Below, one piece after another: positions 7,781-30,605 of a DNA stretch of 35,756 bases. This DNA is from Pseudorhodobacter aquimaris (lineage in GTDB: Bacteria > Pseudomonadota > Alphaproteobacteria > Rhodobacterales > Rhodobacteraceae): assembly GCF_001202025.1 (NCBI RefSeq), contig NZ_LGHS01000053.1, positions 1 through 35,756 on the forward strand. The letters run 5' to 3'. The notes under the pieces were generated by a model. The model saw nothing but the letters and a program-made list of their open reading frames with translations, did no database searches and had not been told where the DNA came from. The position numbers and the translations under genes are program-made. Position 1 is the first letter of the stretch. Each line of letters starts with the position of its first letter.

Positions 7781-7798
7781 TCCGAAGGACGCCTCCCG

Positions 7799-10801: not shown

Positions 10802-10829
10802 TGATTACAGATGATTACAGATGATTACA
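10802..10829 (+). promoter_or_regulatory. Triple direct repeat upstream of the antitoxin gene
   Basis: TGATTACA occurs three times with a 10-bp period (10802, 10812, 10822), ending 12 bp before the antitoxin start codon. Repeats on the same face of the helix are typical operators for ribbon-helix-helix antitoxins such as ParD/CopG. The repeats contain in-frame or out-of-frame ATGs that should not be taken as starts. Confidence 0.65.
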
Positions 10830-10841
10830 TTGGAGCACACT

Positions 10842-11093
10842 ATGCCGCAGCGCGCAGCATCCGAACCGATCACCATCCGCACGGCCAAGGTGGCCGAGAT
10901 CGACGCCTTGGCGGGCGCGATGGACCGTTCCCGCAACTACATCGTCAATCAGGCGATTGAGCAGTATCTTGAAGCCAACACCTGGCAGATGGAACGGATC
11001 AGAGACGGCATCGCCGCCACCCGCGAAGGCAAGGTCGCGCCTGCGGGCGAGGTCTTTGCCGGGATCGCAGCAAAGCACGGCTGGTCACGTTGA
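10842..11093 (+). CDS. parD: Ribbon-helix-helix antitoxin (ParD/CopG type)
   Basis: 83 residues from ATG 10842, which has GGAG at 10832-10835. The in-frame ATG at 10821 lies in the operator repeats. The N-terminus has the RHH pattern (ITIRTAKVAEIDALAGAMD, then SRNYIVNQAIEQYL), followed by a C-terminal part (GIAATREGKVAPAGEVFAGIAAKHG) that would wrap the toxin. It neutralises the downstream toxin and represses the operon. Its TGA overlaps the toxin start. It probably stabilises the plasmid. Confidence 0.88.
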   Translation: MPQRAASEPITIRTAKVAEIDALAGAMDRSRNYIVNQAIEQYLEANTWQMERIRDGIAATREGKVAPAGEVFAGIAAKHGWSR

Positions 11094-11398
11094 AGCAGCT
11101 GGTCATTGCTGAACCTGCGGCCCGCGATCTTGAAGGGATCGTGGATTACATCGCTCTGGATAACCCCGTTGCGGCTGAGAGAGTGTACTGGGGAATCGTG
11201 AGTGCGGCAGAGAAGCTGCCTGAGTTTCCGGCCTTGGGTCGCCCCGGACGCCACCCTGAGACGCGGGAGCTCAGCATTGCAGATTTTCCCTACCTGGTTG
11301 TCTACGAGGTTGGCCCCAAAGCTGTAACTATCCTAGCGGTATTTCACACCTCCCGCGATCTCGCAAAAGCGCTGAATGAGAGAATGCAGGCCAGCTAA
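11090..11398 (+). CDS. parE: ParE/RelE-superfamily toxin
   Basis: 102 residues, starting with TTG at 11090 that overlaps the antitoxin stop (TTGA). The features VIAEPAARDLEGIVDYIA, the central LGRPGRHPETRELSI and the C-terminal YLVVYEV..VTILAVFHTSRD are those of ParE-like toxins, which act on DNA gyrase. Other members of this fold are ribosome-dependent RNases, but the sequence pattern favours ParE. The complete length and the tight coupling suggest an active pair. Confidence 0.88.
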   Translation: MKQLVIAEPAARDLEGIVDYIALDNPVAAERVYWGIVSAAEKLPEFPALGRPGRHPETRELSIADFPYLVVYEVGPKAVTILAVFHTSRDLAKALNERMQAS

Positions 11399-11668: not shown

Positions 11669-12559
11669 TCACGTTCCCCAGTCTCTTGCTGGTCTGATGT
11701 TCAGCGGTCGCGCAATTTTGCGGTCAGCGGCGCCAGAATGCCAATCGAAGTCGCCGGATAGTATGACGTGCTCCCACCCGAGGGGCGAGGTGTGCGGAAG
11801 CAGCTTGGCGTCGTAGAGCGGGCTGGCCTGCTCGAGGTGGCTGGCCGCTTTGTCCATGTAGATCGTGTTCCATAACGTGATGGCGGCGATGACGAGGTTG
11901 AGCGCCATGGCCCGTTTCTGTTGGGCCGCGTCAGAGCGATCATGAATGCGCCCTTGTGAATAAGCAAATACGGCCTTGGCCAGCGAGTGACGCGCTTCAC
12001 CCTTGTTGAGACCTGCGTGGCTTTCCATGCGTAGGTCGGCGTTCTCGATCCAGTCGAGCATGAAGAGCGTGCGTTCGATCCGACCGATTTCACCCAGAGC
12101 GAGGTATAGCCGGTTTTGCTGGCGGTACGCCCCAAGCTTGCGCAGGATTTCAGACGGTTTGATGGATTTGTCACGTATGCTGGCCGCGAGCCGCATGATG
12201 TCGCCCCAATGCTGCCGGATCACCTCTTCGTTGATCGGTTTGCCCATGATAGGCGATAAAGTGGGCCACGCTTTCGCGCTCCCGAAGCAGGTCAACCTCC
12301 GGTCCGGAAAGTCGCGCAGACGTGGCGCGAAGGTCATCCCCAACAGATGGAACAGGGCAAAGACGTGGTCCGACACGCCGCCGGTATCTGTGTAGTGAAC
12401 GAGGGGATCGAAGCTGGCCGGATTGTTCAGGAGGCCATCGAGCACGAAAGGGGCTTCGCCTGCGGTTGCCCCGATGACGCTCGAATGGAACTCTCCCATA
12501 CAGGTTTTTACCCTGTCATCGAGTGTTGACAACAGGGGAGCGTAGGGCGAAAACCGCAT
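11669..12559 (-). pseudogene. tnpA: Tn3-family transposase, C-terminal remnant
   Basis: About 280 residues of the roughly 970 of a full Tn3 TnpA. Recognisable blocks are VIGATAGEAPFVLDGLL, YTDTGGVSDHVFALFHLLG, FAPRLRDFPDRRL, NADLRMESHAGLNKGEARH, ALNLVIAAITLWNT and the end SPLGWEHVILSGDF. The DDE-domain Asp and Glu of the missing upstream part are absent. The similarity fades upstream of about 12505; the first residues of the open frame (MRFSPYAPLL) are not Tn3-like and mark the breakpoint. The remnant cannot transpose. It forms the border between the plasmid backbone and the metabolic cluster, which may have entered by recombination at this element. Confidence 0.85.
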
Positions 12560-12606
12560 CGGGACATGCGCGAAGCATCCATCAGCACAGCAATCAGAGG
12601 CAGATC

Positions 12607-13674
12607 ATGGCAAAGCCCGGCAGAAACACCATTATTCTGGGCGGCCTGGCCGTTGTCGCCGTGCTTGGCTGGCTGGCCTGGGACCGGCTGCAACCCGCCG
12701 GTCTGCCGGCGGGTTTTGCCAGCGCCAATGGCCGGATCGAGGCGACCGAGGTGGATATCGCGGCGCTCACCGGCGGCCGAATCGCCGAAATCACCGCTGC
12801 CGAAGGTGACATGGTCAGCGCAGGCGATGTGCTGGTGCAGATGGACGTGGTGCAGCTGAACGCACAAAAACGTCAGGCCGAAGCGCAGCTTGCCCGCGCC
12901 GAAATCGGCGTCGAGACAGCAAGGGCGCTGGTCGCTCAGGCCGAGGCACAAGAGCGCGCGGCCCGGGCCGCGGTTGATCAGGCAGGCTCGGTTGCCGATG
13001 CCGCGTCGCGCAGGCTTGAACGCTCTGAGCAGCTTGCAAAGACCAGTGCGATCTCGCAGCAGGTGCTGGATGATGACCGCGCCCGGGACGCCCAGGCCCG
13101 CGCCGGTGTGGCCTCGGCCGAAGCCAGCCATGCGGCAGCGCTGGCGGGGGTCAGCAGCGCGCAGGCGCAGGTGGTCGATGCAAGTGCGGCCGTCGAGGCG
13201 GCAAAGGCGTCGATTGATGCGATCCAGGCCTCTCTGGACGACGCCACGCTGAAAGCGCCGCGCACGGGCCGGATCCAGTATCGCATCGCACAAGAGGGCG
13301 AGATTGTCGGCTCTGGCGGGCGGATCCTCAGCCTTGTCGATCTGGGCGATGTCTATATGACGGTTTTTCTGCCGACATCGCAGGTCGGCCGGGTGCAGGT
13401 CGGATCAGAGGTGCGCCTTGTCATGGATGCGGCGCGGGAATTCGTGATCCCGGCCACGGTTTCCTATGTTGCCGATGTGGCGCAGTTCACGCCAAAGACG
13501 GTCGAGACCGCCGATGAGCGCGAAAAGCTGATGTTCCGCGTCCGTGCCCGCATCGACCCCGAGCTGCTGTCGCGGCATATCGAATATGTCAAAACCGGCC
13601 TGCCGGGCATGGCCTATCTGCGGCTTGATCCGGATGCCGCCTGGCCTGACTTTCTTTCCAATGTCGTGAAATGA
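12607..13674 (+). CDS. HlyD/YhiI-type membrane-fusion protein
   Basis: 355 residues. One N-terminal membrane segment ([18 protein letters not shown], 8-25) anchors a periplasmic adaptor. The split lipoyl/barrel-sandwich parts are [20 protein letters not shown] and, after the coiled coil, [17 protein letters not shown]. Between them about 150 Ala-rich residues form a long alpha-hairpin. A beta-barrel region follows. It is closest in type to the E. coli YhiI/YbhG adaptors that partner ABC-2 exporters. The ATG at 12607 has AGAGG upstream; the open frame begins earlier, in transposon DNA. The stop overlaps the start of the ABC gene (ATGA), so the genes form one operon. The substrate is unknown. 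Confidence 0.88.
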
Positions 13675-16409
13675 CCGGCTCAGTTGCCGGGGTCTCCGGC
13701 CTGACGCTGCGCTATGGCAAGGTCACGGCGCTTGACAATGTGACGCTGGAGATCCCTGAGGGGCGCATGGTCGGGCTGATCGGGCCAGACGGGGTCGGAA
13801 AGTCCAGCCTTCTGTCGCTGCTGGCCGGGGCACGTGTGATCCAGCAGGGCAAGGTCGAGGTTCTGGGCGGCGATATGCGCGATGTGGCGCATCGCAACCG
13901 CGTCTGCCCCCGCACCGCCTATATGCCGCAGGGTCTGGGCAAGAACCTCTACCCGACGCTTTCGGTCGAAGAGAACCTTGATTTCTTCGGCTCGCTTTTC
14001 GGTCATGACAAGGCCGAACGCGAGCGGCGGATCACCGATCTGCTGGCTGCGACCGGCATGACGCCGTTCCGGTCGCGCCCGGCGTCAAAGCTGTCGGGCG
14101 GCATGAAGCAAAAGCTGGGTCTGTGCTGCGCGCTGATCCATGATCCCGATTTCCTGATTCTTGACGAGCCGACCACCGGCGTCGATCCACTGTCGCGCCG
14201 CCAGTTCTGGGATCTGATCGACCGCATCCGCGCGACACGGCCGGGGATGAGCGTGATCACCGCCACCGCCTATATGGAAGAGGCCGCGCGCTTCGACTGG
14301 CTGGTTGCGATGAATGCGGGCCGGGTGCTGGCCACCGGCACCACCAGCGATCTGCTGTCGCGGACCGGGGCCGACACGCTTGATGCAGCCTTCATCGCGC
14401 TTTTGCCCGAAGAAGACCGGGGCGAAGACAGTGCCGTGGTGATCCCGCCGCGGACCACCGATGACAGCGATATCGCCATCGAGGCCGAGGGGCTGACGCA
14501 GCGCTTTGGCGATTTCGTGGCGGTCGACAATGTTTCCTTCCGCATCCCCAGGGGTGAGATTTTCGGCTTTCTGGGTTCGAACGGCTGCGGCAAGACGACG
14601 ACGATGAAGATGCTCACCGGGCTTCTGGAGCCGAGTGAGGGCCGGGCAAAGCTTTTCGGCCATGAGGTCGATGCAAGCGATCTGTCGGTGCGCCGCCGGG
14701 TCGGGTTCATGTCGCAGGCCTTCTCGCTCTATTCCGAGCTGACGGTGCGTCAGAACCTTGATCTGCACGCGCGGCTTTTCGATATGGCGGCCGAGAAGAT
14801 CCCCGCCAGGGTTGACGAGATGATCGCCCGGTTCGATCTGGGCGACGTGACCGACAGCCTGCCCGAGGCGTTGCCGCTGGGTATCCGCCAGCGGCTTTCG
14901 CTGGCGGTGGCGATGATCCATGCGCCCGAGATCCTGATCCTTGACGAGCCGACCTCGGGGGTGGACCCGGTGGCGCGCAACGGCTTCTGGCGCATTCTGG
15001 CGGAACTTTCGCGCAAGGATGGCGTGACGATCTTTGTCTCGACCCATTTCATGAACGAGGCGGAATGGTGCGACCGCATCAGCCTGATGCATGCGGGCAA
15101 GGTGCTGGTCTCGGACACCGCCGAGGGGATCACGAAAGCCAAAGGTTGCGCCACGCTGGAAGACGCGTTCATCGCCTATCTTGAAGAGGCGATTGGCGAG
15201 ACGGCACCCGCCCCCGCCGCTGCGCCCGAGGCCGCGCCCGAGGCCCCCGCAGCCGGGGTGACCCATCACGCGCAGCAATCCGGCTTCAGCCTGCGGCGAC
15301 TGCTTAGCTATTCGCAGCTGGAAAGCCTGCAATTGCAGCGCGATCCGATCCGGCTGACCATGGCGTTGGTCGGCAGCCTTCTTCTGATGATCGTGGTGGG
15401 GCTGGGCATCAACATGGATGTCGAGGATCTGACCTTCGCCGCCCTTGACCGCGACCAGACCACCACCAGCCGCAATTATATCGCCGATATTGCGGGATCG
15501 CGCTATTTCATCGAACAGCCGGGCCTGACAAGTTACGACGAGATCGACGCAAGAATGCGCTCGGGCGAGCTGGCGCTGGCGATCGAGATCCCGCCCGGCT
15601 TTGCCGCCGATATCGCGGCAGGCAGGGATGTGCAGGTCGGGGCCTGGTTCGACGGCGCCAACCCCAGCCGCGCCAATACGGTGCAGGGCTATGTGCAGGG
15701 CATGCATGCCGACTGGATCACACGTCAGGCGCGTCAGCTTTACGGTGACAAGGCGAGCGGCGGCAGTTTCGAACTGGTGACCCGATACCGCTACAACCCC
15801 GACGTGCGCAGCCTGAATGCGATGGTCCCGGCGATCATCCCGCTGCTTTTGCTGATGATCCCGGCGATCCTGACCACGCTTTCGGTCGCGCGTGAACGCG
15901 AACTGGGCTCGATCATCAATTTCTACGTCACGCCGGTGACGCGGCTGGAATTTCTGCTTGGCAAACAGCTGCCCTATATCGCGCTGGCCATGCTGAATTT
16001 CTTCCTGATGATGGCCATGGCGGTCACATTCTTCGCAGTGCCCTTCAACGGCAGTTTTCTGGGCTTTACCCTTTCGGCGCTGATCTATGTCACCGCGACC
16101 ACGGCGCTTGGTTTTCTGGTGTCGGTCTTCATCGCAAGTCAGGTCGCGGCGCTGTTCGCGACCGCCATGCTGACGATGATCCCGGCGGTCAGCTATTCGG
16201 GTTTGATCGACCCGGTCTCTTCGCTGTCGGGTTTTGGCCGGGTTCTGGGCGAGATCTACCCCTCGACCTGGTTTATCACCGCCGCGCGGGGGGCTTTCTC
16301 CAAGGCCTTCGGAATGGCGGAACTGGCCGGGCCGATGCTGGCCATGGGCATCGCCATTCCGGTGATTATCGGGCTGGCGGCGGCCTTCCTGAAAAAACAG
16401 GCGAAGTGA
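13671..16409 (+). CDS. rbbA: RbbA-type ABC protein: two ATPase domains fused to an ABC-2 permease
   Basis: 912 residues. NBD1: Walker [10 protein letters not shown] (38-46), signature LSGGMKQ (141-147), Walker [11 protein letters not shown]; the usual switch His is replaced ([11 protein letters not shown]), as in E. coli RbbA. NBD2: Walker [10 protein letters not shown] (302-310), degenerate signature [10 protein letters not shown], Walker [10 protein letters not shown], and STHFMNEAE with the His present. After an Ala/Pro linker (about 510-530) comes an ABC-2 permease with one membrane segment near 565-585, a large outer loop, and five or so segments from about 725 to the end. The architecture equals that of RbbA (YhiH), named as a ribosome-associated ATPase, though the operon with HlyD and YhhJ-like partners points to export. 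The role is therefore ambiguous. Confidence 0.9.
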
Positions 16410-16416
16410 GGGGCGG

Positions 16417-17529
16417 ATGAACCTGCGCAACACCTTCAATCTGGGCGTCAAGGAATTGCGCGGGCTCTGGCGCGATCCGGTGATGCTGGTGCTGATCGTC
16501 TATTCCTTTTCGCTCTCGATCTGGACCTCTGCGAACGTCTCGCCCGAGGCGCTGACGAATGCCGCGATCTCGATCGTGGATGAGGATCAGTCGCATCTCT
16601 CCGCCCGCATCACCTCGGCCTTTTATCCGCCCTATTTTGTCGAGCCGCAGATGACCACGACGGCCGAGATGGATCGGCGGATGGATCAGGGGCTGGATAC
16701 TTTTGCGCTGAACATCCCACCGGATTTCGCGCGCGATGTGCTGGCCGGAAAAAACCCGGCGATCCAGCTGAATATCGACGCGACAAGGATGAGCCAGGCC
16801 TTCACCGGCGGCGGCTATATCCAGCAGATCGTGTCCTCCGAGGTTTCGGAATATGTGGCGGGCTACCGGGCCGAGACCGCGCTGCCGGTCGATCTGGCGC
16901 TCCGCGCGCGGTATAATCCCTCGCTGGATCCGAAGTGGTTCGGCGCGATTTCCGCCGTGATCCGGTCGATCACCATGCTGTCGCTGGTGCTGACCGGCGC
17001 GGCGCTGATCCGCGAAAAGGAACATGGCACGGTCGAGCACCTGCTGGTCATGCCCGTCACCCCGACCGAGATCATGTTTTCCAAGATCTGGTCGATGGGG
17101 CTGGTGGTGCTGCTGGGGTCGATCTTTTCGCTAAGTGTTGTGGTGCAGGCGCTGATGGCGGTTCCGGTGCAGGGCTCGGTCGTGCTGTTTCTTGCGGGCG
17201 CGGTGCTGATGGTTTTCGCCATGACGGGGCTTGGAATTTTCCTTGCCACCATCGCCGGGTCGATGCCGCAATTCGCGCTTTTGCTGATGATGGCGCTTTT
17301 GCCGCTGCAGGTGCTGTCAGGCGCGATGACGCCGCGGGAATCCATGCCAGAGATCATCCAGACCATCATGCTTGCAGCCCCCAACACGCATTTCATCATC
17401 CTCTCGCAGGGCATCTTGTTCCGAGGTGCCGGGCTTGACGTGGTCTGGCCCCAGTTCGCGGCGCTGGCGGCGATCGGGGTGGCGCTGTTCTGGCTGGCAC
17501 TGATACGATTCAAGAAATTCCTGCGGTAA
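16417..17529 (+). CDS. ABC-2 type permease (YhhJ-like)
   Basis: 370 residues. One membrane segment near the N-terminus (PVMLVLIVYSFSLSIW) is followed by an extracytoplasmic domain of about 150 residues. Five or six membrane helices then run from about 180 to the end (SITMLSLVLTGAALI, VVLLGSIFSLSVVVQALM, VVLFLAGAVLMVFAMTGLGIF, FALLLMMALLPLQVLSG). The signature IREKEHGTVEHLLVMPVTP is the typical ABC-2 cytoplasmic loop. It starts 7 bp after the RbbA stop with GAGGGG as ribosome-binding site. With the RbbA permease half it would form the membrane pair of the exporter, matching the E. coli trio yhiI-rbbA-yhhJ. Confidence 0.88.
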   Translation: MNLRNTFNLGVKELRGLWRDPVMLVLIVYSFSLSIWTSANVSPEALTNAAISIVDEDQSHLSARITSAFYPPYFVEPQMTTTAEMDRRMDQGLDTFALNIPPDFARDVLAGKNPAIQLNIDATRMSQAFTGGGYIQQIVSSEVSEYVAGYRAETALPVDLALRARYNPSLDPKWFGAISAVIRSITMLSLVLTGAALIREKEHGTVEHLLVMPVTPTEIMFSKIWSMGLVVLLGSIFSLSVVVQALMAVPVQGSVVLFLAGAVLMVFAMTGLGIFLATIAGSMPQFALLLMMALLPLQVLSGAMTPRESMPEIIQTIMLAAPNTHFIILSQGILFRGAGLDVVWPQFAALAAIGVALFWLALIRFKKFLR

Positions 17530-17534
17530 GGCAT

Positions 17535-18614
17535 ATGTTGGGCCGCCTGCTTCTGATCCTGACGCTTGCGCTTGCAGGCTGCGCTGCGCGTCCGGGGCCG
17601 GAAGTTCTGGCCCCCGATGCCGGTGCCCTGCCCGAGGGCGCCCGCCTTGTCCGGGTGCTGACCATGACCACCCGCGCGCCCGAGGCAAATCTGCCGGGGG
17701 CCTTTGGCGACTCTCGCTCCATCCGGCCAAGCTGGCTGGAATACGAGGTCTCGGTGCCGCCTGGCCATCGGCCGGGAAAGATTGAATGGCCGGATCGCAA
17801 TGGCAGCAGCGCCGACCGGAATTTCGTGATGCGCAGCCGGCAGACGCTTAGCCGTGACGCCTTTGCAAAGCGTCTCTCGCGCGAGGGGGTCGGGCTTTAT
17901 GTCCACGGCTTCAACACCCGCTTTCATGAGGCCTTGTTCCGCACCGCGCAGCTTTCGGTCGATGCGCATATCGAGGAAAAGCCTGTCCTTTTTACATGGC
18001 CCTCGGCAGGCTATCCGGGCGCCTATCTGGCTGATCGTGACGCGTCTGACTTTTCCCGCGCGGCGCTTGCCGATCTGCTGCGGCTTTTGACAAAGGGTCG
18101 GTCCGCTTCCGACGCGGTGCCGGTGCTGGCTCACAGCATGGGCGCGCGGCTGACGATGGAGACGCTGGTGCAACTGCGTCTTGCCGGGCGGGACGATGTG
18201 CTGGACCGGATCGAGGTCATCCTTGCCGCCCCGGATATTGATATCGATCTTTTCCGCGCCCAGATGGTCAGCCTTGGGCCGATGAAGCATCCCATCACGG
18301 TGCTCGTCTCCTCGGACGATCTGGCGCTGAAACTGTCGTCGCAGCTTTCGGCACGTCGGATACGGCTTGGGCTTGTCGATGTGCGTGATCCGGCGGTCCA
18401 GCGCCTGGCGGTCGCGACCGGAATACGGATCGTGGATATTACCGATATTCCGACCGATGATCCCGTCCACAGCCGCTATGTCGGCCTGCTTTCCGGCGAG
18501 GCCGGGGCTGTGGTTGAAAACACCCTTTTCGGTGAGGTACGCTTGGCGGGGGCCTTTGTCTTCAATCAGGTCGGTGGTGTCTTCACTGGCATCGGTGATG
18601 TGCTGGCGGATTGA
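17535..18614 (+). CDS. Lipoprotein alpha/beta hydrolase (DUF900 family), copy 1
   Basis: 359 residues. A lipoprotein signal (MLGRLLLILTLALAGC, lipidated Cys16) is followed by AARPGPEVL. The DUF900 hydrolase core shows the strand GVGLYVHGFNTRFHEA, then FTWPSAG, and the nucleophile elbow VLAHSMGARL. The acid is probably in APDIDIDLF. The substrate is unknown; an ester or thioester is possible. It follows the YhhJ-like permease by 5 bp and so belongs to the exporter operon, probably acting on the outer face of the envelope. A diverged paralogue sits at 31237-32382 and shares the whole layout, including the CAARPGPEVL mature N-terminus. Confidence 0.85.
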   Translation: MLGRLLLILTLALAGCAARPGPEVLAPDAGALPEGARLVRVLTMTTRAPEANLPGAFGDSRSIRPSWLEYEVSVPPGHRPGKIEWPDRNGSSADRNFVMRSRQTLSRDAFAKRLSREGVGLYVHGFNTRFHEALFRTAQLSVDAHIEEKPVLFTWPSAGYPGAYLADRDASDFSRAALADLLRLLTKGRSASDAVPVLAHSMGARLTMETLVQLRLAGRDDVLDRIEVILAAPDIDIDLFRAQMVSLGPMKHPITVLVSSDDLALKLSSQLSARRIRLGLVDVRDPAVQRLAVATGIRIVDITDIPTDDPVHSRYVGLLSGEAGAVVENTLFGEVRLAGAFVFNQVGGVFTGIGDVLAD

Positions 18615-18867
18615 GGCCGCGGCCTTGGCCCGGCGTTGGTGCCAGCGGCATTGGCCGGGTCATGGCCTCGACGTCGCGCCGTTTTGCCGGTAATCGTCCA
18701 TGATGATCAGGGCAGGGACAGGGGATTCCGTGTCCGCCGCCGGACGCCGATGCTTTGCCTGTTCAGTCCGGGGGCGGCTGTTTCGGCGGTTTGACGGCGC
18801 TTTACGACATGTCGTCGGCATCGGGCCTTGGGCGCAATGCCTATGTTCAAGAAAAATCTTGAACTCT

Positions 18868-18881
18868 TTGATTTCGATCAA
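18868..18881. promoter_or_regulatory. FNR/FnrL-type box upstream of the PHA synthase operon
   Basis: TTGATTTCGATCAA is a perfect match to the FNR-family consensus TTGAT-N4-ATCAA. Its centre (18874.5) lies 58 bp before the phaC start codon. A GCTAAC-like -10 at about 18901 would put the transcription start near 18913-18916, an activating distance of about -39 to -42. FnrL or a Dnr/Nnr-type relative would induce the operon when oxygen is low. The rest of 18615-18932 has no gene or clear terminator. Confidence 0.75.
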
Positions 18882-18932
18882 CACTCGTTGATAGTTCTGT
18901 GCTAACTTCCGCCGGTAAATTGGAGACGCGAC

Positions 18933-20690
18933 ATGGCCCTTACTCCCAAATCAGATGGCTCGGGTGCAACCGGCGATGAAAGCCTTGGCATCGAGGCTTT
19001 TCAGGCCGTTAACCGCATACGAGAGGCGCTCTCGGGACAGCTCAGCGGCGGGGTCTCGCCCGGCTCGCTGATGATGGCCTATGTCGACTGGGCCTTTCAT
19101 CTGGCGCAGGCACCGGGCAAGCAGATGGAACTGGGCGTCAAGGCGGGCCGCAAATGGCAGCGTCTCATGGCGCATCTGATGGCCTCGGCGATGGATCCGC
19201 AGGCCGCGCCGGTCATCACGCCCTTGCCGGGCGACCGCCGTTTCGCCGGTGAAGCCTGGGCGAAACCGCCCTTCAGCTGGATGTCGCAGGCTTTCCTGCT
19301 GCAGCAGCAATGGCTGCATAACGTCACCCATGAGGTTCCGGGCGTGACGAAGCACCACGAGGATGTGGTGTCTTTTGCCGCGAAACAGATCCTTGATGTC
19401 TGTGCGCCTTCGAACAACCCTTTTACCAATCCCGAGGTTGTGGCACGGACCTGGGCTACCGGAGGCATGAACCTTGTGAAGGGCTGGCAGAACTGGCTGC
19501 AGGACGTCGTCCGCCAGATCCGGCACGAGCCGCCAGAGGGTGTCGAGGCCTTTACACCGGGTCGCGATGTGGCGGTGACGCCGGGCAAGGTAATCTTCCG
19601 CAACCACCTGATCGAACTGATCCAGTATACGCCCACGACAGAAACCGTGCACCCCGAGCCGGTGCTGATCGTTCCGGCCTGGATCATGAAATACTATATC
19701 CTCGACCTCAGCCCGGAGAATTCACTGATCCGCTGGCTGGTGGCGCAGGGCCACACGGTTTTCGCCATTTCCTGGCGCAATCCGGGTGCAGAGGATCGTG
19801 ATCTGACGCTGGAGGATTATCGCCGGCTGGGCGTGATGGCCGCGTTGGATGAGATCACCCGTCTAATGCCCGATCAGAAAATCCACGCCACCGGCTATTG
19901 TCTGGGTGGCACTTTGCTGTCGATCGCGGCGGCTGCCATGGCGGGGAAGGGGGACGCGCGTCTCGCCTCGCTGACGCTGCTTGCCGCGCAGGTCGATTTC
20001 GCCGAACCGGGCGAGCTTGCGTTGTTCATCGACCCAAGCCAGCTGCATCTTCTTGAAAGCATGATGTGGAACCGCGGCTATCTCTCTGCCGATCAGATGG
20101 CGGGGGCGTTTCAGCTTTTGCGCTCGAATGACCTCATCTGGTCCCGGATGGTGCGCGATTACATGATGGGCGAGCGGACGGCGATGAATGATCTCATGGC
20201 CTGGAATGCCGACAGCACCCGGATGCCCTATCGGATGCATGCCGAATATCTGCGCAGGCTTTATCTGAATAATGAGCTTTCTTCGGGACGCTTCACCGCC
20301 GGGGGCAAGACAGTTCTGTTGCAGAACATCCGGGTGCCGATCTTTGCCGTCGGGACCGAGCGCGATCATGTCGCACCCTGGAAGTCGGTCTACAAAATCC
20401 ACCAGTTCACCGATTGCGAGGTGACTTTCGCGCTGACGTCGGGCGGGCATAATGCGGGGATCGTCTCTCCTCCCGGTCACCCGCGCCGCCGCTACCGGCT
20501 GGCGACCCGCGCCCATGACGACGCGCTTTTGCCGCCCGAGACCTGGGTCGAGGCCAATCCTGCAACCGAGGGTTCGTGGTGGACGCCCTGGCAGGCCTGG
20601 CTTGCCGCGCGTTCGGGTGCCCCCGCCGCGCCGCCCGCAATGGGCAACGCGCTGGCAGATGCGCCCGGCACATATGTTTTCCAGAGGTGA
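18933..20690 (+). CDS. phaC: Poly(3-hydroxyalkanoate) synthase
   Basis: 585 residues, the size of class I synthases. The enzyme polymerises (R)-3-hydroxyacyl-CoA into storage polyester. The lipase-like box is GYCLGG with nucleophile Cys323. Asp478 (GTERDHVAPW) and His506 (SGGHNAGIV) complete the triad. The N-terminal domain (about 60-240) carries NPFTNPEVVARTWATGGMN and leads into the alpha/beta-hydrolase core (EPVLIVPAWIMKYYILDL). GGAGA stands 7 bp before the ATG. It is first gene of an operon with three downstream enzymes (4-bp gap, then 4-bp overlaps) and lies downstream of the FNR box, so expression is probably raised under oxygen limitation. Confidence 0.92.
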   Translation: MALTPKSDGSGATGDESLGIEAFQAVNRIREALSGQLSGGVSPGSLMMAYVDWAFHLAQAPGKQMELGVKAGRKWQRLMAHLMASAMDPQAAPVITPLPGDRRFAGEAWAKPPFSWMSQAFLLQQQWLHNVTHEVPGVTKHHEDVVSFAAKQILDVCAPSNNPFTNPEVVARTWATGGMNLVKGWQNWLQDVVRQIRHEPPEGVEAFTPGRDVAVTPGKVIFRNHLIELIQYTPTTETVHPEPVLIVPAWIMKYYILDLSPENSLIRWLVAQGHTVFAISWRNPGAEDRDLTLEDYRRLGVMAALDEITRLMPDQKIHATGYCLGGTLLSIAAAAMAGKGDARLASLTLLAAQVDFAEPGELALFIDPSQLHLLESMMWNRGYLSADQMAGAFQLLRSNDLIWSRMVRDYMMGERTAMNDLMAWNADSTRMPYRMHAEYLRRLYLNNELSSGRFTAGGKTVLLQNIRVPIFAVGTERDHVAPWKSVYKIHQFTDCEVTFALTSGGHNAGIVSPPGHPRRRYRLATRAHDDALLPPETWVEANPATEGSWWTPWQAWLAARSGAPAAPPAMGNALADAPGTYVFQR

Positions 20691-20694
20691 CAAG

Positions 20695-22089
20695 ATGACC
20701 GGCACTCTGACCAACTATCTGTTTCACCAGATGAAAATCGGCGACCGCGCCAGTCTGCTGCGCCATGTCGGCCCCGAGGATATCGCGCTTTTCGCTGCGG
20801 TCTCCGGCGATGCCAACCCCGCGCATCTGGATCCGGGTTTCGCCGCCCATGGCCCGTTTGGCCATGTGGTGGTGCATGGCATGTGGACGGCGGCGCTGAT
20901 TTCGGCGGTGCTGGGCACCCGCCTGCCGGGGCCGGGGACGATCTATCTCGACCAGCAGATCCGCTTTCAAAAGCCGGTTTCCCCCGGCGATACCATAACC
21001 GCCGAGGTCGAAGTGGCTGAGCTGATCGAGGGTAAAAACCGTGTTCGCCTGACCACCACCGCCCGCAATCAGCTGGGCGAGGTGGTGCTTTCGGGTGAGG
21101 CGCTGGTGCTTGCGCCGGTTGAGCAGCTGACCTGGGTGCCGGGGAACCTGCCCGAGGCGGTGATCTTGCCGAAAGGTCGCTGGCAGGGCTTTGTCGAAGA
21201 GGCCCGGGCGCTGCCGCCGGTGCGGGCGGCGGTGGTGCATCCCTGCTCGAAATCCGCGATCCTTGGCGCGGTCGAGGTGCGGGACGAAGGGCTGCTGGAT
21301 CCGATCCTGATCGGCCCCGGCGCAAAGATCCGCGCGGCGGCAGAGGAGGCCGGGGTCTCGCTCGATGGCTTCCGGATCGAAGAGGTCGAACACAGCCATG
21401 CGGCGGCGGCGCGGGCGGTGGAACTGGCCGCGAAGGGCGAGGTCCAGGTGCTGGTGAAGGGCAGCCTGCATTCGGATGAGCTGCTCTCCGCCGTGGTCTC
21501 GAAAACCGGCGGGCTGCGCACGGAACGCCGGATCAGCCATGTCTATGCGATGGATGTGCCAGCCTACGGGAAGCCCGTGATCGTCACCGATGCCGCGATC
21601 AATATCGCGCCGACGCTCGAGCATAAGCGCGACATCTGCCAGAATGCCGTCGATCTGATGCGGCTTTTGGGGCGCGACCAGCCCAAGGTCGCGGTGCTGG
21701 CGGCGGTCGAGACGGTGAACCCGATGATGCCCGCGACGCTCGATGCCGCCGCGCTGACGGTGATGGCGGCGCGCGGCCAGATCACCGGCGCGCTGGTCGA
21801 CGGGCCGCTGGCCTTTGACAATGCGATCAGCCCCGAGGCGGCGGCGACCAAGGGCATCACCTCGCAGGTGGCGGGTGAGGCCGATATCCTGCTGGTGCCG
21901 GATCTTGAGGCCGGGAATATGCTCGCCAAACAGCTGATCTATTTTGCAGGGGCGACGGCGGCGGGGCTGGTGCTGGGCGCGCGGGTGCCGATCGTGCTGA
22001 CCAGTCGCGCCGATCCCTTGTCGGCCCGCATCGCCTCGGCCGCTTTGGCGAAACTGGTCGCGATCCGCAAGGCGGAGGGCAAGGCATGA
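20695..22089 (+). CDS. Bifunctional MaoC-like enoyl-CoA hydratase / phosphate acyltransferase
   Basis: 464 residues. Residues 1-140 form a MaoC-type (R)-specific hydratase domain with the catalytic pattern SGDANPAHLD (Asp39, His44) and GHVVVHGMW. Residues about 155-464 are a phosphotransacetylase/phosphotransbutyrylase domain, with VHPCSKSAILGAVEV, VLVKGSLHSDELLSAVV and the closing LTSRADPLSARIASAALA. The first activity would make (R)-3-hydroxyacyl-CoA, the PhaC substrate, from enoyl-CoA. The second would exchange CoA for phosphate and feed the kinase encoded next. The ATG at 20695 lies 4 bp after the phaC stop with AGAGGTGA upstream. The acyl specificity cannot be read from the sequence. Confidence 0.88.
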   Translation: MTGTLTNYLFHQMKIGDRASLLRHVGPEDIALFAAVSGDANPAHLDPGFAAHGPFGHVVVHGMWTAALISAVLGTRLPGPGTIYLDQQIRFQKPVSPGDTITAEVEVAELIEGKNRVRLTTTARNQLGEVVLSGEALVLAPVEQLTWVPGNLPEAVILPKGRWQGFVEEARALPPVRAAVVHPCSKSAILGAVEVRDEGLLDPILIGPGAKIRAAAEEAGVSLDGFRIEEVEHSHAAAARAVELAAKGEVQVLVKGSLHSDELLSAVVSKTGGLRTERRISHVYAMDVPAYGKPVIVTDAAINIAPTLEHKRDICQNAVDLMRLLGRDQPKVAVLAAVETVNPMMPATLDAAALTVMAARGQITGALVDGPLAFDNAISPEAAATKGITSQVAGEADILLVPDLEAGNMLAKQLIYFAGATAAGLVLGARVPIVLTSRADPLSARIASAALAKLVAIRKAEGKA

Positions 22090-23255
22090 CCCGCGATCTG
22101 ATCCTGACCTTCAACGCCGGGTCATCGACCATCAAACTGGGCTTTTACGCGCTGGAGATCGCCGGGCCGCGCCCGCTGGCCTCTGGCGTGATCGATTTTC
22201 GTGACGAACCTTTCGCGGTGCGTCTGAAGCGGGAGGGGGAGATGCTCTCCGGCCCGATCAGCGCCGATCCGGGCGATCTGACGGCGGTTCTGAACCAGGC
22301 TTTCGCCTGGCTGGCAGGGCAGTTCGATCTCTCGCGCCTCGCGGTGATCGGCCACCGGGTGGTGCATGGCGGGGATGTTTTCAAAGGCCCGGCGCGGATC
22401 ACCGATCGGGTGATTGCCCAGATCGACGCGCTGGCGCGGCTTGCGCCCTTGCATCAGCCGCAGAGCCTCGCGCTGATCCGGGTGATGCGGGCGCTTTACC
22501 CGGATGTGCCGCAGACGGCGTCATTTGACACAGCGTTTCACGCGACCAGCCCGCCCCTGATGCGCCGCTTTGCCATTCCGCGCGCGCTTTATGACCAGGG
22601 GATCAAGCGCTATGGGTTTCACGGGTTGTCTTACCGCTATATCGCCGGGCAGCTGGGCGATCTGGCTCCGGATGCGAAGGTGGTCGCGGCGCATCTGGGC
22701 AGCGGTGCCAGCCTTTGCGCGATCCGGGGCGGCGAGAGTATCGACAGCTCGATGGGGTTCTCGACGCTGGATGGCATCCCGATGGCGACGCGTTCAGGCG
22801 CTCTGGACCCCGGTGTCATCCTGCATCTGATGGGCGAGATGGGGCACAGTCTGAAACAGGTCGAGACCATGCTTTACCGCGAAAGCGGGCTGCTGGGGGT
22901 GTCGGGCTTTGAGGCCGACAGCCGCGAGCTGATGGCCAGCCCGCGCCCCGAGGCCGCCGAGGCGATTGACCTTTTCTGCCTGCGCATTGCGGGCGAGGTG
23001 GCGCGGCTGGCCGCCAGCATGGGCGGCATCGACGCCATCGTCTTCACCGCAGGCATCGGCGAACACCAGCCCGGCATCCGCGCCCGCGTGGCGGCGCGCC
23101 TGGCATGGCTGGGGGCCGATCTTGACCCGAAGGCCAATGCGGCGGGTCTGCGCCGGATCAGCACGGCAACCAGCCGCGTGAAACTCCTCGTCATTCCGAC
23201 CGATGAGGAAAGCATCATTGCCCGCGAGGCGGCAAGCGAAGGAACTGGGACATGA
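22086..23255 (+). CDS. ackA: Acetate/propionate-family kinase
   Basis: 389 residues, a standard size for AckA. Motifs present: LTFNAGSSTIK (8-18), VIGHRVVHGG, the catalytic region TASFDTAFH, YGFHGLSYRYI, the phosphate loop HLGSGASLCAI and the long STLDGIPMATRSGALDPG block, then VFTAGIGEHQP. It converts an acyl-phosphate plus ADP to the acid plus ATP, the second half of the phosphotransacetylase-kinase route. Its ATG overlaps the stop of the previous gene (ATGA) and its own stop overlaps the next start, which ties the four enzymes into one unit. Acetate, propionate or butyrate could be the product. Confidence 0.92.
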   Translation: MTRDLILTFNAGSSTIKLGFYALEIAGPRPLASGVIDFRDEPFAVRLKREGEMLSGPISADPGDLTAVLNQAFAWLAGQFDLSRLAVIGHRVVHGGDVFKGPARITDRVIAQIDALARLAPLHQPQSLALIRVMRALYPDVPQTASFDTAFHATSPPLMRRFAIPRALYDQGIKRYGFHGLSYRYIAGQLGDLAPDAKVVAAHLGSGASLCAIRGGESIDSSMGFSTLDGIPMATRSGALDPGVILHLMGEMGHSLKQVETMLYRESGLLGVSGFEADSRELMASPRPEAAEAIDLFCLRIAGEVARLAASMGGIDAIVFTAGIGEHQPGIRARVAARLAWLGADLDPKANAAGLRRISTATSRVKLLVIPTDEESIIAREAASEGTGT

Positions 23256-24016
23256 TTGATCTGAGCGGCAAACGCGGCCTCGTGGTCGGTGTGGCGAATG
23301 AGGCGAGCATTGCCGCTGGTTGCGCCCGGGCCTTTCGCGCGGCGGGGGCAGAGCTGGCGCTGACCTGTCTGAATGAAAAAGCACGGCCCTGGGTGGCGCC
23401 GGTTGCCGAAGAGGTGGGCGCCGACTTGCTGCTCGCTTGCGATGTGCGCGAGCCGGGCCAGCTGGAGGCGGTGTTTGACCGTATCACCGCCGAATGGGGG
23501 CGGCTCGATTTCCTGCTCCATGCCATTGCCTTCGCGCCGAAGGAGGATCTGCAGACCAGCGTGGTCAATGCCTCGGCCGAGGGGTTTGCGCTGGCTATGG
23601 ATGTTTCCTGCCATTCCTTCCTGCGCATGGCGCGGCTGGCGCGGCCCCTGATGCAGGCGGGCGGATCGCTGATCACCGTCAGCTTTTACGGCGCGGACCG
23701 GGTGGTCGAGAATTACAACCTCATGGGGCCGGTCAAGGCGGCGCTGGAGGCCTCCGTCCGCTATACCGCCGCCGATCTTGCGGGTGAGGGCATCCGGGCC
23801 TTTTCGCTGTCGACCGGGCCGGTGAAGACCCGGGCGGCCTCGGGGATCGGGCGGTTTGATGCGCTGATGGATGAGGTCCGCGCGCGCACGCCCTCGGGTC
23901 GGCTGGTGAGCATCGAAGAGATCGGTACGCTGGCGGCCTTTCTGGCAACCGAGGCCGCAAGTCCCATGAGCGGATCGGTGGTCTATGCCGATAACGGATT
24001 TCACACCACCGCCTGA
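23252..24016 (+). CDS. fabI: FabI-like enoyl-ACP reductase (SDR superfamily)
   Basis: 254 residues. The nucleotide-binding turn is GVANEASIA (13-21), as in FabI rather than classical SDRs. The catalytic pair is Tyr155 and Lys162 in NYNLMGPVKA, with the second Tyr in SFYGADR (146). The substrate-side block FSLSTGPVKTRAASGIG is also FabI-like. It reduces enoyl-ACP or enoyl-CoA with NADH/NADPH. As the last gene of the low-oxygen PHA/kinase operon it may serve as a dedicated sink for reducing power rather than housekeeping fatty-acid synthesis. A GC-rich palindrome (GCGGGGCCCCGC, 24024-24035) follows the stop but has no T-tract. Confidence 0.88.
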   Translation: MIDLSGKRGLVVGVANEASIAAGCARAFRAAGAELALTCLNEKARPWVAPVAEEVGADLLLACDVREPGQLEAVFDRITAEWGRLDFLLHAIAFAPKEDLQTSVVNASAEGFALAMDVSCHSFLRMARLARPLMQAGGSLITVSFYGADRVVENYNLMGPVKAALEASVRYTAADLAGEGIRAFSLSTGPVKTRAASGIGRFDALMDEVRARTPSGRLVSIEEIGTLAAFLATEAASPMSGSVVYADNGFHTTA

Positions 24017-24070
24017 GGCAGGCGCGGGGCCCCGCCCTTGACCGGGAGAGTACCGTAAAGTGTGGGGCAA

Positions 24071-25456
24071 TCATGCAGCCATTTCGGTTTCGGACGAAGG
24101 CTTCAACGCCGGATGCCATTGCTCGAACTTGGCGCGCAGGGTGCCATCGAGGGCTCTGGTTCGGGTTTGCAGCATGAGGTGCGCGCCTCGTTTTGACCAG
24201 CGCATTTGCTGCCGCTTGCCGAAGCGCTTTCCAACAACGGTGTTAACGGTGCTTTCGACAAAGCCGGTTGAAACGCGTTCACCGTACCGTCGTCTTTCCG
24301 CATAGTTCGGGATCATCAAGGCGTTGTTGGCGATGTAGGTCTCGAACTCGGACGCCGCCTTCCGAAGTGCCTTGATGCTGGCATAGTCCGTCTCGACAAT
24401 TTCCAGATCGATGGCAAGGTCTTCGATCGCTGCCTGACCATCGTGAAGGTTGCCATTCCAAAGGAACCCTTTGATCTGGCGCAGCAGGCGGGCAATGGCT
24501 TCGGCCTCTGCGGGATTGTGATGCGCAAGCCCTTTGACGTATTGCTGCATGACGGTGATGCGCATGGTGATGTGGAACCAATCCAGGATATGCTCAGAGG
24601 CAGGTGCCATGTGTCGCGCCATGTTGATGACCGTGTCTCCACCGTCAGTCATGAATGTCACTGGCTGGTTTTCCTGCCAACCCTGATCCTTCAGAACTTC
24701 ATGCAGTCGCCGCTTGGGCTTGTCATCATGACTTTGGACAAGCCCAAGGTAGCGGCTCGGGCGATCTGTGGGGATGGATTTGCCGACGGTGACCTCGAAA
24801 TGCGACTGACCAGCGTCGCGAGACCGAACATAGCCACCGTCGATACCGACGGTGATTTGGCCCTCAGGGTTGGGAAGCTGGGCGCGCTGGTGGGGACTGG
24901 TTTCAATGAAACTGTAACGCTCATTAGAAAGTTCGGCCTCCATCCGCGTGGCCACACGCCCCAGATGTCTGCGGATGGTGTCTGGATTTAGCCTCATATC
25001 AATCGGCAGGACATCTTTCAGCAGGTCAGTCGTGACCCCGAAAGATACAAGCGAAGCCCATTTCGTCTCAAGCCAGAGCAACTCCGGGGCAATATGGTCG
25101 GGCAAAAGTTCGTTCAGGGGGCTGAAAGTTTTGGCTGGACCATTGTGGCACTGGCAGGAATAGAAGCGCGGACTTTCAACGGCGATGTCACCGAAGACCG
25201 TCCGGTATCGAATTTGCCGGCGCCCTTTGCCACGAAGCTTTCGATCACAGCACGTACAGCGGGCATGTTTGATACAAAACGCTTCGCATTGCGCGGCAAC
25301 AACTTTCCGCTGGATGCCCAAAAGAACGGCTTTGCCTTCCTCTATGGACAGGCCGATGTCACCAGCAGCCTCAATGCCCTTGGAGAATGCGGCGATCCTA
25401 TCCGTGTGAGCGGTGCCATCTGGCGCAGTTATTGTGACGCTGATTTCGATATCCAT
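24071..25456 (-). CDS. ISKra4-family transposase
   Basis: 461 residues. The N-terminus (MDIEISVTITAPDGTAHTDR) leads to a Cys-rich zinc segment (CTCCDRKLRGKGRR and later FYSCQCH). The DDE catalytic core includes VGIDGGYVRSRD, FMTDGGDTV and HILDWFHITMRITV, the last being characteristic of the ISKra4 group; STGFVESTVNTVVGKR near the end supplies the probable Glu. I chose the ATG at 25454-25456; the longer frame to 25648 overlaps the resolvase gene and has no similarity. The protein appears intact, so the element may be active. The family name rests on remembered motifs. Confidence 0.8.
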   Translation of the reverse strand: MDIEISVTITAPDGTAHTDRIAAFSKGIEAAGDIGLSIEEGKAVLLGIQRKVVAAQCEAFCIKHARCTCCDRKLRGKGRRQIRYRTVFGDIAVESPRFYSCQCHNGPAKTFSPLNELLPDHIAPELLWLETKWASLVSFGVTTDLLKDVLPIDMRLNPDTIRRHLGRVATRMEAELSNERYSFIETSPHQRAQLPNPEGQITVGIDGGYVRSRDAGQSHFEVTVGKSIPTDRPSRYLGLVQSHDDKPKRRLHEVLKDQGWQENQPVTFMTDGGDTVINMARHMAPASEHILDWFHITMRITVMQQYVKGLAHHNPAEAEAIARLLRQIKGFLWNGNLHDGQAAIEDLAIDLEIVETDYASIKALRKAASEFETYIANNALMIPNYAERRRYGERVSTGFVESTVNTVVGKRFGKRQQMRWSKRGAHLMLQTRTRALDGTLRAKFEQWHPALKPSSETEMAA

Positions 25457-25478
25457 CTTCGGGGTCCTGCCTGCTTGA

Positions 25479-26099
25479 TTACATTGGTTCTGAATCTCTC
25501 GCCCGCATGATTGTCTGCCGACTGGTGCCCATTTCGCGTGCGATGGAGGAAACTGTCGCGCCATTGGCAATCTTTTCGCGGACCAACGCCTGCTGATCAG
25601 CCGAAAGGGTTGATGGGCGCCCCAGTGTTTTGCCTTGCGCTTTCGCACGCGCCAGCCCCGATTGCGTGCGTTCGATCAGAAGGTCTCGCTCGAACTGGGC
25701 AACTGCGTTGATCACACCCATCGTCAGCTTGCCCGCAGAACTGGTCAGATCCACGCCGCCCAAGGCGAGGCAATGCACACGGATGCCCAAGGTTTCCAGC
25801 TTGGCCACGGTGGTACTGACATCGATCGCATCGCGCCCCAGCCGGTCCAGCTTGGTCACGACAAGAACATCGCCACGCTCCATCTTGTCCAGAAGACGCG
25901 CAAATCCCTTCCGCTGTGCGATGGCTTGTGAGCCGGAAACCGTCTCGGTAATGATCCGGTGTGGCTCCACCGCAAATCCTGCGCCAGCGATCTCCCGGAT
26001 CTGGTTTTCGGGGTCCTGGTCGACGGTTGATACTCTGGCGTAGGCGAATGTTCTGGTCACAGCACTGCAATTCTGTCCGGAAATGTTGTCCAAAATCAT
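25479..26099 (-). CDS. Serine resolvase/invertase
   Basis: 206 residues from ATG 26099. A GTG at 26060 would give the more usual compact start (TRTFAYARVSTVDQ). The catalytic Ser is in YARVSTVDQ. Other family blocks are VSGSQAIAQRKGF, VVTKLDRLGRDAIDV, AVAQFERDLLIERT and AKAQGKTLGRPSTL, ending in an HTH (GATVSSIAREMGTSRQTI). It lies between the transposase and the pRiA4b ORF-3 gene inside the element and probably resolves cointegrates, with TGTCC-rich sites just upstream (26073-26159). Its C-terminus resembles the tnpR tails inside the two 387-bp miniature elements. Confidence 0.88.
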   Translation of the reverse strand: MILDNISGQNCSAVTRTFAYARVSTVDQDPENQIREIAGAGFAVEPHRIITETVSGSQAIAQRKGFARLLDKMERGDVLVVTKLDRLGRDAIDVSTTVAKLETLGIRVHCLALGGVDLTSSAGKLTMGVINAVAQFERDLLIERTQSGLARAKAQGKTLGRPSTLSADQQALVREKIANGATVSSIAREMGTSRQTIMRARDSEPM

Positions 26100-26159
26100 A
26101 CACCTGTTCGATACAGGCTCAAGATAATTTATGGACAGATCATTACGTCCTGTCCGGAA
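26073..26159. promoter_or_regulatory. Candidate res site of the element's resolvase
   Basis: CTGTCCGGAA occurs at 26073-26082 and 26150-26159. A related TTGTCC is at 26086-26091 and an inverted GGACA at 26133-26137. CCTGT-TCGAT-ACAGG forms a hairpin at about 26103-26117. Clustered half-sites beside a serine recombinase gene are what a res site looks like. The site overlaps the resolvase 5' end. Confidence 0.4.
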
Positions 26160-26179
26160 CCGAACCCTTCTGAACACCC

Positions 26180-26845
26180 CTACCGCATCTGCTGGTGCAT
26201 CAGAGTACGGTGTTCCCCGGCACGAAATCGCTTGTTCACATCGCCCCGTGAAAACTTGTCCTCAAGGAAAGGTTGACGGGCCTTGATCCGCTCCATCGCT
26301 TCTTCAACATCGTCATTCAGAAAGTCAGACACTTTCCTCTCGGGGGCATTCGCCGCGACGATGTCTTCAAGAAAATCTGACATCACGCCCATGTCGCGCC
26401 ATGCATCATACCCGTCAGCTTCATCCCGGCGCTCTTGATACCCGTGTGGCCCCCCACAATCTTCCGGCGGACAAGCCCCCGAACCGCCCGTGCAGATCGG
26501 ATAAGTCTTCTTTGGTGGAGGGTTGATCGCCTCAAGGCGGATTTCGTACTCCCAATGATCGCCCATATCATAGACATACGAGAACCGCTCATTTTCGCGG
26601 AACCCAAACTGGTACAGTGACACATCCGGGTTCGCGGCAATCAATTCGAACGAGCCATACCGCACAGCATGAATGTCAAAGACAAACAGATGAATGCCCT
26701 CCCAGCCCATGGCTACCTGTAGAATGCCGTGCAACTCGCGCACGGTCGTCGAAGTAGGCACCAACACCCGCCGCCAGATCATCGGGCTGATGCCGAGAAG
26801 GCGAACTTTCAACTGGTAGATTTCCGGGGCGGCAGACATCAGCAA
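26180..26845 (-). CDS. Plasmid pRiA4b ORF-3 family protein
   Basis: 221 residues. The family (PRiA4_ORF3, also linked to IS1096 accessory genes) is recognised from YQLKVRLLGISPMIWRRVLV at the start, then TVRELHGILQVAMGWEG, the FRENERFSYVYDMGDHWEYEI block and the Cys/Gly stretch CTGGSGACPPEDCGGPHGY. The biochemical role is unknown; it is common as a passenger in insertion elements. An in-frame ATG at 26839 is an alternative start. It is the promoter-proximal gene of the element's three-gene unit. Confidence 0.82.
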   Translation of the reverse strand: MLMSAAPEIYQLKVRLLGISPMIWRRVLVPTSTTVRELHGILQVAMGWEGIHLFVFDIHAVRYGSFELIAANPDVSLYQFGFRENERFSYVYDMGDHWEYEIRLEAINPPPKKTYPICTGGSGACPPEDCGGPHGYQERRDEADGYDAWRDMGVMSDFLEDIVAANAPERKVSDFLNDDVEEAMERIKARQPFLEDKFSRGDVNKRFRAGEHRTLMHQQMR

Positions 26846-29149: not shown

Positions 29150-29425
29150 CTTTTCCACCTTAGACAAACTATGCTCAGTGTACGTCCGTAACGCGAGGAA
29201 GAAAATGGGCCAATCACCCAGTATCGTCCGGTCACTGGCGTTTGCGTCTAGGTGGCTTGTAGCGTGGCTGGTCAGCCCTATCGTAGATCGTGCCACCTGT
29301 CTGATCTGGTCGGACACTTACACCCTCCCAAAAGCGACATGGTGTGATTGCGGCGGCCGCTCTCCAGTGGCGAACGAGGTCCTGTTACATTGGCCTCATG
29401 GAAACAAGCCGTGAGGAGAACGACC

Positions 29426-30511: not shown

Positions 30512-30605
30512 GGAGGTAAATCGATCTCGTAAAAACGGTTGGGACGTGGCGGTTGCCACATAACGGGTTCCTCCCAACAAAGGTACGTAATGCGACATAG
30601 CGTTC

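Follow-up and report, generated by a model that had tools for sequence, protein, structure and literature searches.

Operons that pair phaC, the gene of a polyhydroxyalkanoate (PHA) synthase, with genes of acyl-phosphate metabolism have been described before. According to the available text of the respective papers, Burkholderia synthases of PhaC group D1 belong to a four-gene phaC-phaJ/pta-ackA-fabI cluster (PMC8231600), Herbaspirillum phaC2 lies in one operon with pta-ackA (PMC8222739), and pta-ackA-fabI genes of Burkholderia and Rhizobium are induced by root exudate (PMC5789663); the orfA-pta-ackA-fabI operon of Sinorhizobium meliloti is co-transcribed (Summers et al. 1999; cited in PMC8231600 and PMC5789663). 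In Bradyrhizobium, phaC2 is a target of FixK2 (PMC10888616) and is induced in microoxia, as are a phosphoketolase and an HlyD adaptor gene (PMC6515984); this phaC2, which may or may not belong to the PhaC clade considered below, would agree with low-oxygen control of phaC. A predicted FixK regulon comprises a phosphoketolase together with an HlyD protein, an ABC subunit and a permease (RSP3160/3159/3157; PMC2908626). The locus compared here with these systems is an eight-gene block of Pseudorhodobacter aquimaris, situated on contig C53 of its genome assembly (3.8 Mb, 77 contigs); the whole contig (35,756 bp) was analysed and is referred to as the window. The block joins an HlyD-RbbA-YhhJ exporter and a DUF900-family hydrolase to a phaC-phaJ/pta-ackA-fabI operon (Table 1), and the exporter is clearly a recurrent partner of this operon.

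Among the best 80 of 579 phaJ-pta loci, taken from named genomes, 30 have RbbA in the fetched flank, where it is upstream and co-directional at 9, upstream and divergent at 16, and downstream at 5; of the 59 loci with 8 kb or more on either side, 26 have it. With the mobile clade left out, RbbA is present at 22 of 55 loci, namely at 22 of 47 non-betaproteobacterial ones (including the gammaproteobacterial locus L075, which lacks it) and at 0 of 8 betaproteobacterial ones. To judge from record titles, the RbbA-linked loci span many alphaproteobacterial families. Seen from the exporter, PhaC is divergently adjacent to 6 of 22 RbbA operons taken from other genomes, in three genera; gltS, arginine deiminase genes and a fusion at ~12 kb are each the partner of one further operon. 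A first-pass annotation of this DNA had made its proposal of a joint unit depend on linkage that recurs across genomes, and such linkage is now seen from both sides. Across 193 alphaproteobacterial genomes, RbbA exceeds its cut-off in 21 and the full-length fusion occurs in 14; both are found in 9, versus ~1.5 expected under independence (Fisher p 5e-7, kinship not corrected). In a PhaC tree of 67 rows, the 65 cluster-type sequences group in a single clade (100/99) that excludes two other PhaCs encoded by the genome studied here; RbbA-linked members are scattered within this clade, and the two outgroup branches are long.

Proximity of this kind might also arise between two independent stress cassettes: an exporter that expels unrelated toxic compounds and a phaC-ackA operon that serves energy metabolism could travel together since plasmids and low-oxygen islands gather such genes. 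The varying layouts of exporter and operon would agree with this, as would the 16 of 22 RbbA operons without PhaC in the fetched stretch, the fetched plasmid stretches of Haematobacter (L090) and Paracoccus AK26 (L092 and L104) that hold the metabolic operon without an exporter, and the situation in P. denitrificans, where RbbA follows CoA-transferase genes and phospholipid genes lie ~2 kb downstream. We consider independent co-travel possible but doubtful: the 30 of 80 loci with RbbA, spread over many families, compare with at most 10 of 80 for any other tested neighbour (the test required a single aligned piece of at least 45% of the query, and its counts may be low), and divergent hlyD and phaC genes have a single perfect FNR site between them at L064, L078 and L083, with a one-mismatch version at L065. 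L070 has two separate FNR sites in this position.

The phaC unit is most likely under FNR control at low oxygen, to judge from its promoter. The box upstream of phaC, perfect in the sense of TTGAY-N4-RTCAA, lies at promoter distance and is conserved in diverged alleles despite changed flanks, with one mismatch in L007 and L012. When one mismatch is allowed, the window contains 3 matches versus a mean of 2.77 in shuffled sequence, so that the site counts by its position and conservation. In the 320 bp upstream of the first operon gene, scanned at the 86 of 87 loci with enough sequence, 38 of 86 related loci have a perfect box; of 431 control promoters taken from these loci, 20 do (Fisher p 1.4e-19). 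With 11 mobile-clade loci removed, the count is 29 of 75 (p 1.5e-14). Since the loci are related, several rhizobia having one common site, these p-values overstate independence. The genome encodes a Crp/FNR protein with a cysteine-rich N-terminal start, CGECPIRHRAVCSRC, which by its sequence is an FnrL-type regulator.

Control by PhoB, as in the homologous operon of S. meliloti (cited in PMC8231600 and PMC5789663), would instead make this a phosphate-starvation operon; in Haematobacter (L090), an Na/Pi symporter follows gltS. We give this explanation little credence. The window lacks a Pho box close to phaC, its one 3-mismatch match being at 32813, and among 75 relatives without the mobile clade, Pho sites with up to 2 mismatches are found at 1 of 75 versus 1 of 431 controls, and with up to 4 mismatches at 15 of 75 versus 75 of 431; the 3-mismatch cut-off alone is nominally higher (5 of 75 versus 9 of 431, p 0.04). 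PHO-box control, without consistent support in the window or across relatives, was rejected.

The interpretation towards which we lean is that the block forms a horizontally mobile, low-oxygen cassette for the relief of acyl-CoA pressure, organised in two transcription units. The individual parts could act in the following manner: When oxygen falls, the FnrL-type regulator would bind the box observed before phaC and activate its promoter. PhaJ, PhaC and FabI, if they act as their families suggest, would convert short acyl-CoA species into one another, polymerise them and re-oxidise NADH, the polymer perhaps being the electron sink of the first-pass proposal; Pta and AckA may convert surplus acetyl-CoA, perhaps also longer acyl-CoA, to acyl-phosphate and further to acid and ATP; polymer, acid and ATP are thus roles presumed from family membership. 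The linked HlyD-RbbA-YhhJ pump and lipoprotein hydrolase would most likely export or remodel a hydrophobic or acidic product of the same energy stress. PhaC aligns with solved synthases at GYCLGG, ERDHVAPW and SGGHNAG, the sites of what we take to be its catalytic Cys, Asp and His.

The metabolic enzymes might also run a reductive butyrate route with the polymer as fermentation substrate, in which 3-hydroxybutyryl-CoA is converted to crotonyl-CoA by PhaJ, to butyryl-CoA by FabI with NADH, to butyryl-phosphate by Pta and to butyrate and ATP by AckA. This would account for the fusion of hydratase and phosphotransacylase and for the operon's enoyl reductase. Against the phosphate butyryltransferase model TIGR02706, the Pta domain obtains 293.3 bits, short of the cut-off of 410.5, compared with 63.6 bits against the pta model TIGR00651, and its best relative in the PDB is a phosphate butyryltransferase. 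However, the same domain reaches NF008852, which is named phosphate acetyltransferase (460.4 bits, cut-off 413), and AckA scores 316.1 bits with TIGR00016 versus 37.1 with the butyrate kinase model TIGR02707. The kinase pocket position, which presumably bears on substrate choice, is Val in 74 of 74 motif matches, with a pattern that would miss variants at the preceding residue; FabI would have to act on CoA esters, and fabI is present in the fetched stretch at only 39 of the 80 loci kept as the best of 579 with phaJ-pta. We regard the butyrate route as unlikely and retain acyl-CoA relief through polymer and acyl-phosphate.

Several findings weigh against this reading: (i) in only 2 of the 9 genomes that hold both, this one (G000) and G024, are RbbA and the fusion at most 20 kb apart, and phosphoketolase, cytochrome bd and arginine deiminase are not constant neighbours, the other tested genes having the low counts given above; (ii) the hlyD promoter of the window has no perfect FNR box, only 8 of 35 relatives have one upstream of hlyD, none was found in the sequence fetched around the six RbbA-PhaC pairs L112, L117, L118 and L120-L122 or in the related plasmid islands of Agrobacterium pusense (L105) and Pseudorhizobium flavum (L148), and the island of Shinella sumterensis (L149) has one only, before its arginine genes; (iii) PhaC misses the class I PHA synthase model TIGR01838 (539.9 bits versus a cut-off of 622.65), the genome has three further phaC genes and a gene of the polyhydroxybutyrate (PHB) depolymerase family, and Bradyrhizobium PhaC2 is reported as dispensable for PHB in the available text of PMC10888616. 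Among the RbbA operons fetched from other genomes, 4 of 22 (L107, L116, L126, L127) have a perfect box on the hlyD side. The low-oxygen role once proposed for the whole block can thus be kept for the phaC unit, with its box, the enrichment among relatives and a putative FnrL-type regulator, and is not universal, since some linked loci and the window hlyD lack perfect boxes. Phosphoketolase, arginine deiminase and like genes, each present in a minority of loci, were rejected as constant neighbours.

The E. coli transporter YhiI-RbbA-YhhJ presumably has the same three-protein architecture as the exporter; we know of no PHA or pta-ackA partner operon for it. Among 14 control genomes, E. coli is the sole one with an RbbA-family match. 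Older work on E. coli RbbA dealt with a ribosome ATPase activity. This work and the family name would make RbbA a ribosome-associated translation factor instead of an exporter, and a 2025 paper on translation names RbbA 79 times (PMC12096078). For the genes considered here such a role is most improbable: HlyD adaptor and ABC-2 permease genes flank RbbA at 22 of 22 fetched loci, the solved proteins that score best against its ATPase-domain sequence are lipid-moving ABCA transporters, and a paper linking RbbA to protein synthesis and oxidative phosphorylation has been retracted (notice PMC12169533). The window protein combines two ABC ATPase domains with an ABC-2 permease and exceeds the cut-off of its family model. 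No TolC-like family was found among the scanned window proteins, the rest of the genome not having been searched for one. In the hydrolase, an HSMG motif is invariant in an alignment of 6 sequences; its predicted structure, built with five sequences and of modest confidence (pLDDT 67.8), has weak esterase matches in Foldseek (TM ~0.35), and no meaningful match emerged from searching the PDB by sequence.

The recurrent exporter-PhaC partnership is the most valuable lead of this analysis. A more specific proposal, tentative and in our judgement rather unlikely, is that PhaC-linked HlyD-RbbA-YhhJ pumps are dedicated to the low-oxygen export of PHA-derived hydroxyacids or oligomers, or of membrane lipid released by the hydrolase, and that the 'storage' PHA synthases of this clade mainly serve export and the formation of ATP from acyl-phosphate. 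If such a dedicated export route exists, the orphan RbbA family, long assigned to ribosomes, would gain its first physiological setting. The pairing with an often FNR-marked phaC-pta-ackA operon makes this setting concrete: oxygen limitation and acyl-CoA overflow in tractable bacteria.

Content, order and coordinates of the eight genes at 12607-24016 agree with the first-pass annotation: in Pfam and NCBIfam profile searches, all of them are recognised and all open reading frames (ORFs) are open. HlyD was scanned as a longer ORF, 12523-13674, the start at 12607 being that of the annotation of relatives. The fusion lies between phaC and ackA, fabI follows, and curated cut-offs are reached, as defines a phaC-phaJ/pta-ackA-fabI operon. 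The statement that nearly all genes overlap is correct for hlyD/rbbA, pta/ackA and ackA/fabI, with 4 nt each, but not for three other junctions, which are gaps of 4-7 nt. Hydrolase and phaC are separated by 318 nt, and because of this gap the block likely consists of two transcription units, exporter/hydrolase and phaC-fabI. The fusion most likely starts at the position given in Table 1 rather than at an upstream ATG, 20452, within phaC, as indicated by the annotation of relatives and by a family match that starts only with residue 84 of the longer reading frame.

Table 1. Features of the block and its edges in the window (positions in nucleotides)
Feature	Position	Strand	Evidence
Conserved mobile block	12498..24048	+	blastn, ~96.2% over 11,554 bp to L007, L008, L009, L012, L087, L093; 11,541 bp to L088
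HlyD-family periplasmic adaptor	12607..13674	+	PF13437, PF16576
RbbA, two ABC ATPase domains fused to ABC-2 permease	13671..16409	+	NF033858 1518.6 bits, cut-off 1050; PF00005 twice, PF12698
YhhJ-like ABC-2 permease	16417..17529	+	PF12698, PF01061
DUF900 alpha/beta-hydrolase, predicted lipoprotein	17535..18614	+	PF05990 3.4e-54; lipobox LALAGC
Perfect FNR/FixK box TTGATTTCGATCAA, 52 bp before phaC	18868..18881	+	sole perfect match in window
-10-like hexamer, would put the FNR box at about -41 (class II layout), by eye	18902..18907	+	sequence
PhaC-type polyhydroxyalkanoate synthase	18933..20690	+	PF07167, PF12551, both above cut-offs
PhaJ (R-enoyl-CoA hydratase, MaoC)-phosphotransacylase fusion	20695..22089	+	NF006045 696.7 bits, cut-off 282; GDANPAH present
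Acetate/propionate kinase AckA	22086..23255	+	NF005462 577.2 bits, cut-off 486; GHRVVHGG present
FabI-type enoyl reductase	23252..24016	+	NF005717 405.8 bits, cut-off 337; YNLMGPVK (Y-x6-K) in alignment
Tn3 transposase fragment at left edge of block; tetR there in several relatives	11669..12559	-	PF01526; block homology from 12498
Palindrome CCCTGT...ACAGGG in hlyD promoter, possible TetR operator, by eye	12510..12540	.	alignment; only partly kept in L089, L010
ISKra4-family transposase at right edge of block; gltS there in some relatives	24071..25648	-	annotation of matches

The proposed portability of the block is supported by near-identical copies on plasmids or contigs of Paracoccus, Rhodovulum and Gemmobacter: blastn aligns it, at the identity and length given in Table 1, to Rhodovulum marinum, Paracoccus sp. 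M683, P. sediminis, P. lutimaris, P. yeei and P. aerodenitrificans, and over a slightly shorter length to Gemmobacter fulvus (L088). Paracoccus aminophilus JCM 7686 also has the block, on its plasmid pAMI8. Copies of five relatives, compared pairwise, are 99.69-99.87% identical, which points to recent movement. The window copy is a recombinant, mosaic one with a breakpoint at ~20.5-21.0 kb: left of ~20.49 kb it is 98.4-100% identical to these five copies (in 500-bp steps), whereas right of ~20.99 kb its identity is 81.6-91.2% to them and 92.8-95.8% to Pseudogemmobacter (L010). A probable fermentative ATP and carbon-sink cassette thus moves on plasmids between genera of bacteria that are usually considered respiratory. 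At the left edge, the divergent tetR of L087, L089 and L093 is missing from the window and is not annotated in L088 either; a TetR gene at 34228-34764 of the window was rejected as the lost regulator, its product matching the relatives' TetR at only 28% over 53 residues. With the loss of the usual neighbouring TetR gene, the exporter on this plasmid may be constitutive. At the right edge, the window has the ISKra4 element and no convincing gltS match, while gltS follows fabI in L090 and L093 and a short gltS remnant is present in L089. As to a composite transposon, the elements beside the block differ among L087, L088, L089, L093 and the window in a comparison of annotations, made without a systematic search.

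The contig looks like a plasmid of mobilizable type: profile scans detect ArdC, a MobA/L relaxase, a TraG-like coupling protein, an RPA-type replication protein and ParA, and the mobilization region (204-8347) is 92% identical to a Sulfitobacter plasmid and also matches other plasmids of the roseobacter group. No overlap of the contig ends was found by blastn, and circular closure is hence not demonstrated; the window has no tRNAs and no RNA families at gathering score. A parDE-like pair, a CopG-type antitoxin and a ParE toxin, is located at 10821-11398, close to the partition and replication genes. Two C-terminal fragments of Tn3 transposases are present, one at the left edge of the block and one at 35062-35511, toward the right contig end. 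The ISKra4-family transposase is part of a unit at 24071-26845 with a resolvase and a pRiA4b ORF-3-like gene, which has ~92% identity in Roseovarius and Sulfitobacter plasmids. An open gene of the IlvD/Edd dehydratase family (27296-29317) has mobile elements on either side. A perfect direct repeat of 387 bp (30565-30951 and 33768-34154) encloses a second DUF900 lipoprotein hydrolase (31237-32382) and a DUF4105/Lnb_N gene (32216-33403); the 2.8-kb part with these two genes occurs at 99.5% identity on small plasmids of Paracoccus marcusii and P. yeei.

A chromosomal paralogue of the block, on contig C14 of the same genome, has permease-RbbA-HlyD divergent from phaC-fabI-phaJ/pta-ackA; a perfect FNR box lies upstream of phaC, and a second one upstream of phasin and universal stress protein genes. 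The three plasmid islands mentioned above hold related sets of genes: a DUF900-type hydrolase (41.5-43% identical to that of the window), ackA, phaJ-pta, phaC, TetR, gltS, rbbA-yhhJ with hlyD, and arginine deiminase genes, except that L148 has no annotated phaC and the hlyD side of L105 is cut off. By gene content, the islands would fit a common theme of ATP from acyl- and carbamoyl-phosphate. A third HlyD-RbbA-permease operon of the P. aquimaris genome (contig C69, L096; 7344-12232) lies beside genes of an alternative F-type ATP synthase, an FtsH-like protease and a phospholipase-D-like protein. The third PhaJ-Pta fusion of this genome (contig C70, L095; 8643-10028) points away from a heavy-metal P-type ATPase that has a MerR gene; GAPDH and an aldo-keto reductase follow. 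On a plasmid of Sulfitobacter sp. SK012 (L103), two perfect FNR boxes lie between an alternative F-type ATPase operon and a divergent phaC-fabI-phaJ/pta-ackA operon.

In comparison with the described systems, the window operon has the four genes and the unusual phaJ-pta fusion of the D1 cluster of Burkholderia sensu lato (PMC8231600), but none of the 8 betaproteobacterial loci fetched with 8 kb on either side has an RbbA exporter nearby. The S. meliloti operon has a similar gene set and is controlled by PhoB in the accounts available, whereas the window operon has an FNR box and no PHO box. The FixK regulon of PMC2908626 is similar in that a low-oxygen regulator is predicted over an HlyD-ABC-permease set, in which RSP3159 may be RbbA; it differs in that 'hydroxybut' and 'acetate kinase' are absent from the main text of that paper. 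A partnership of RbbA and PhaC was not found among the open-licence papers listed, in one case 8 of 148; PMC11989028 names both RbbA and HlyD. As far as the available texts of these sources go, the phaC-pta-ackA-fabI operon is already known, a point absent from the first-pass annotation, and so is control of some of its parts by microoxia or FixK; its recurrent partnership with the orphan RbbA exporter was not found in them.

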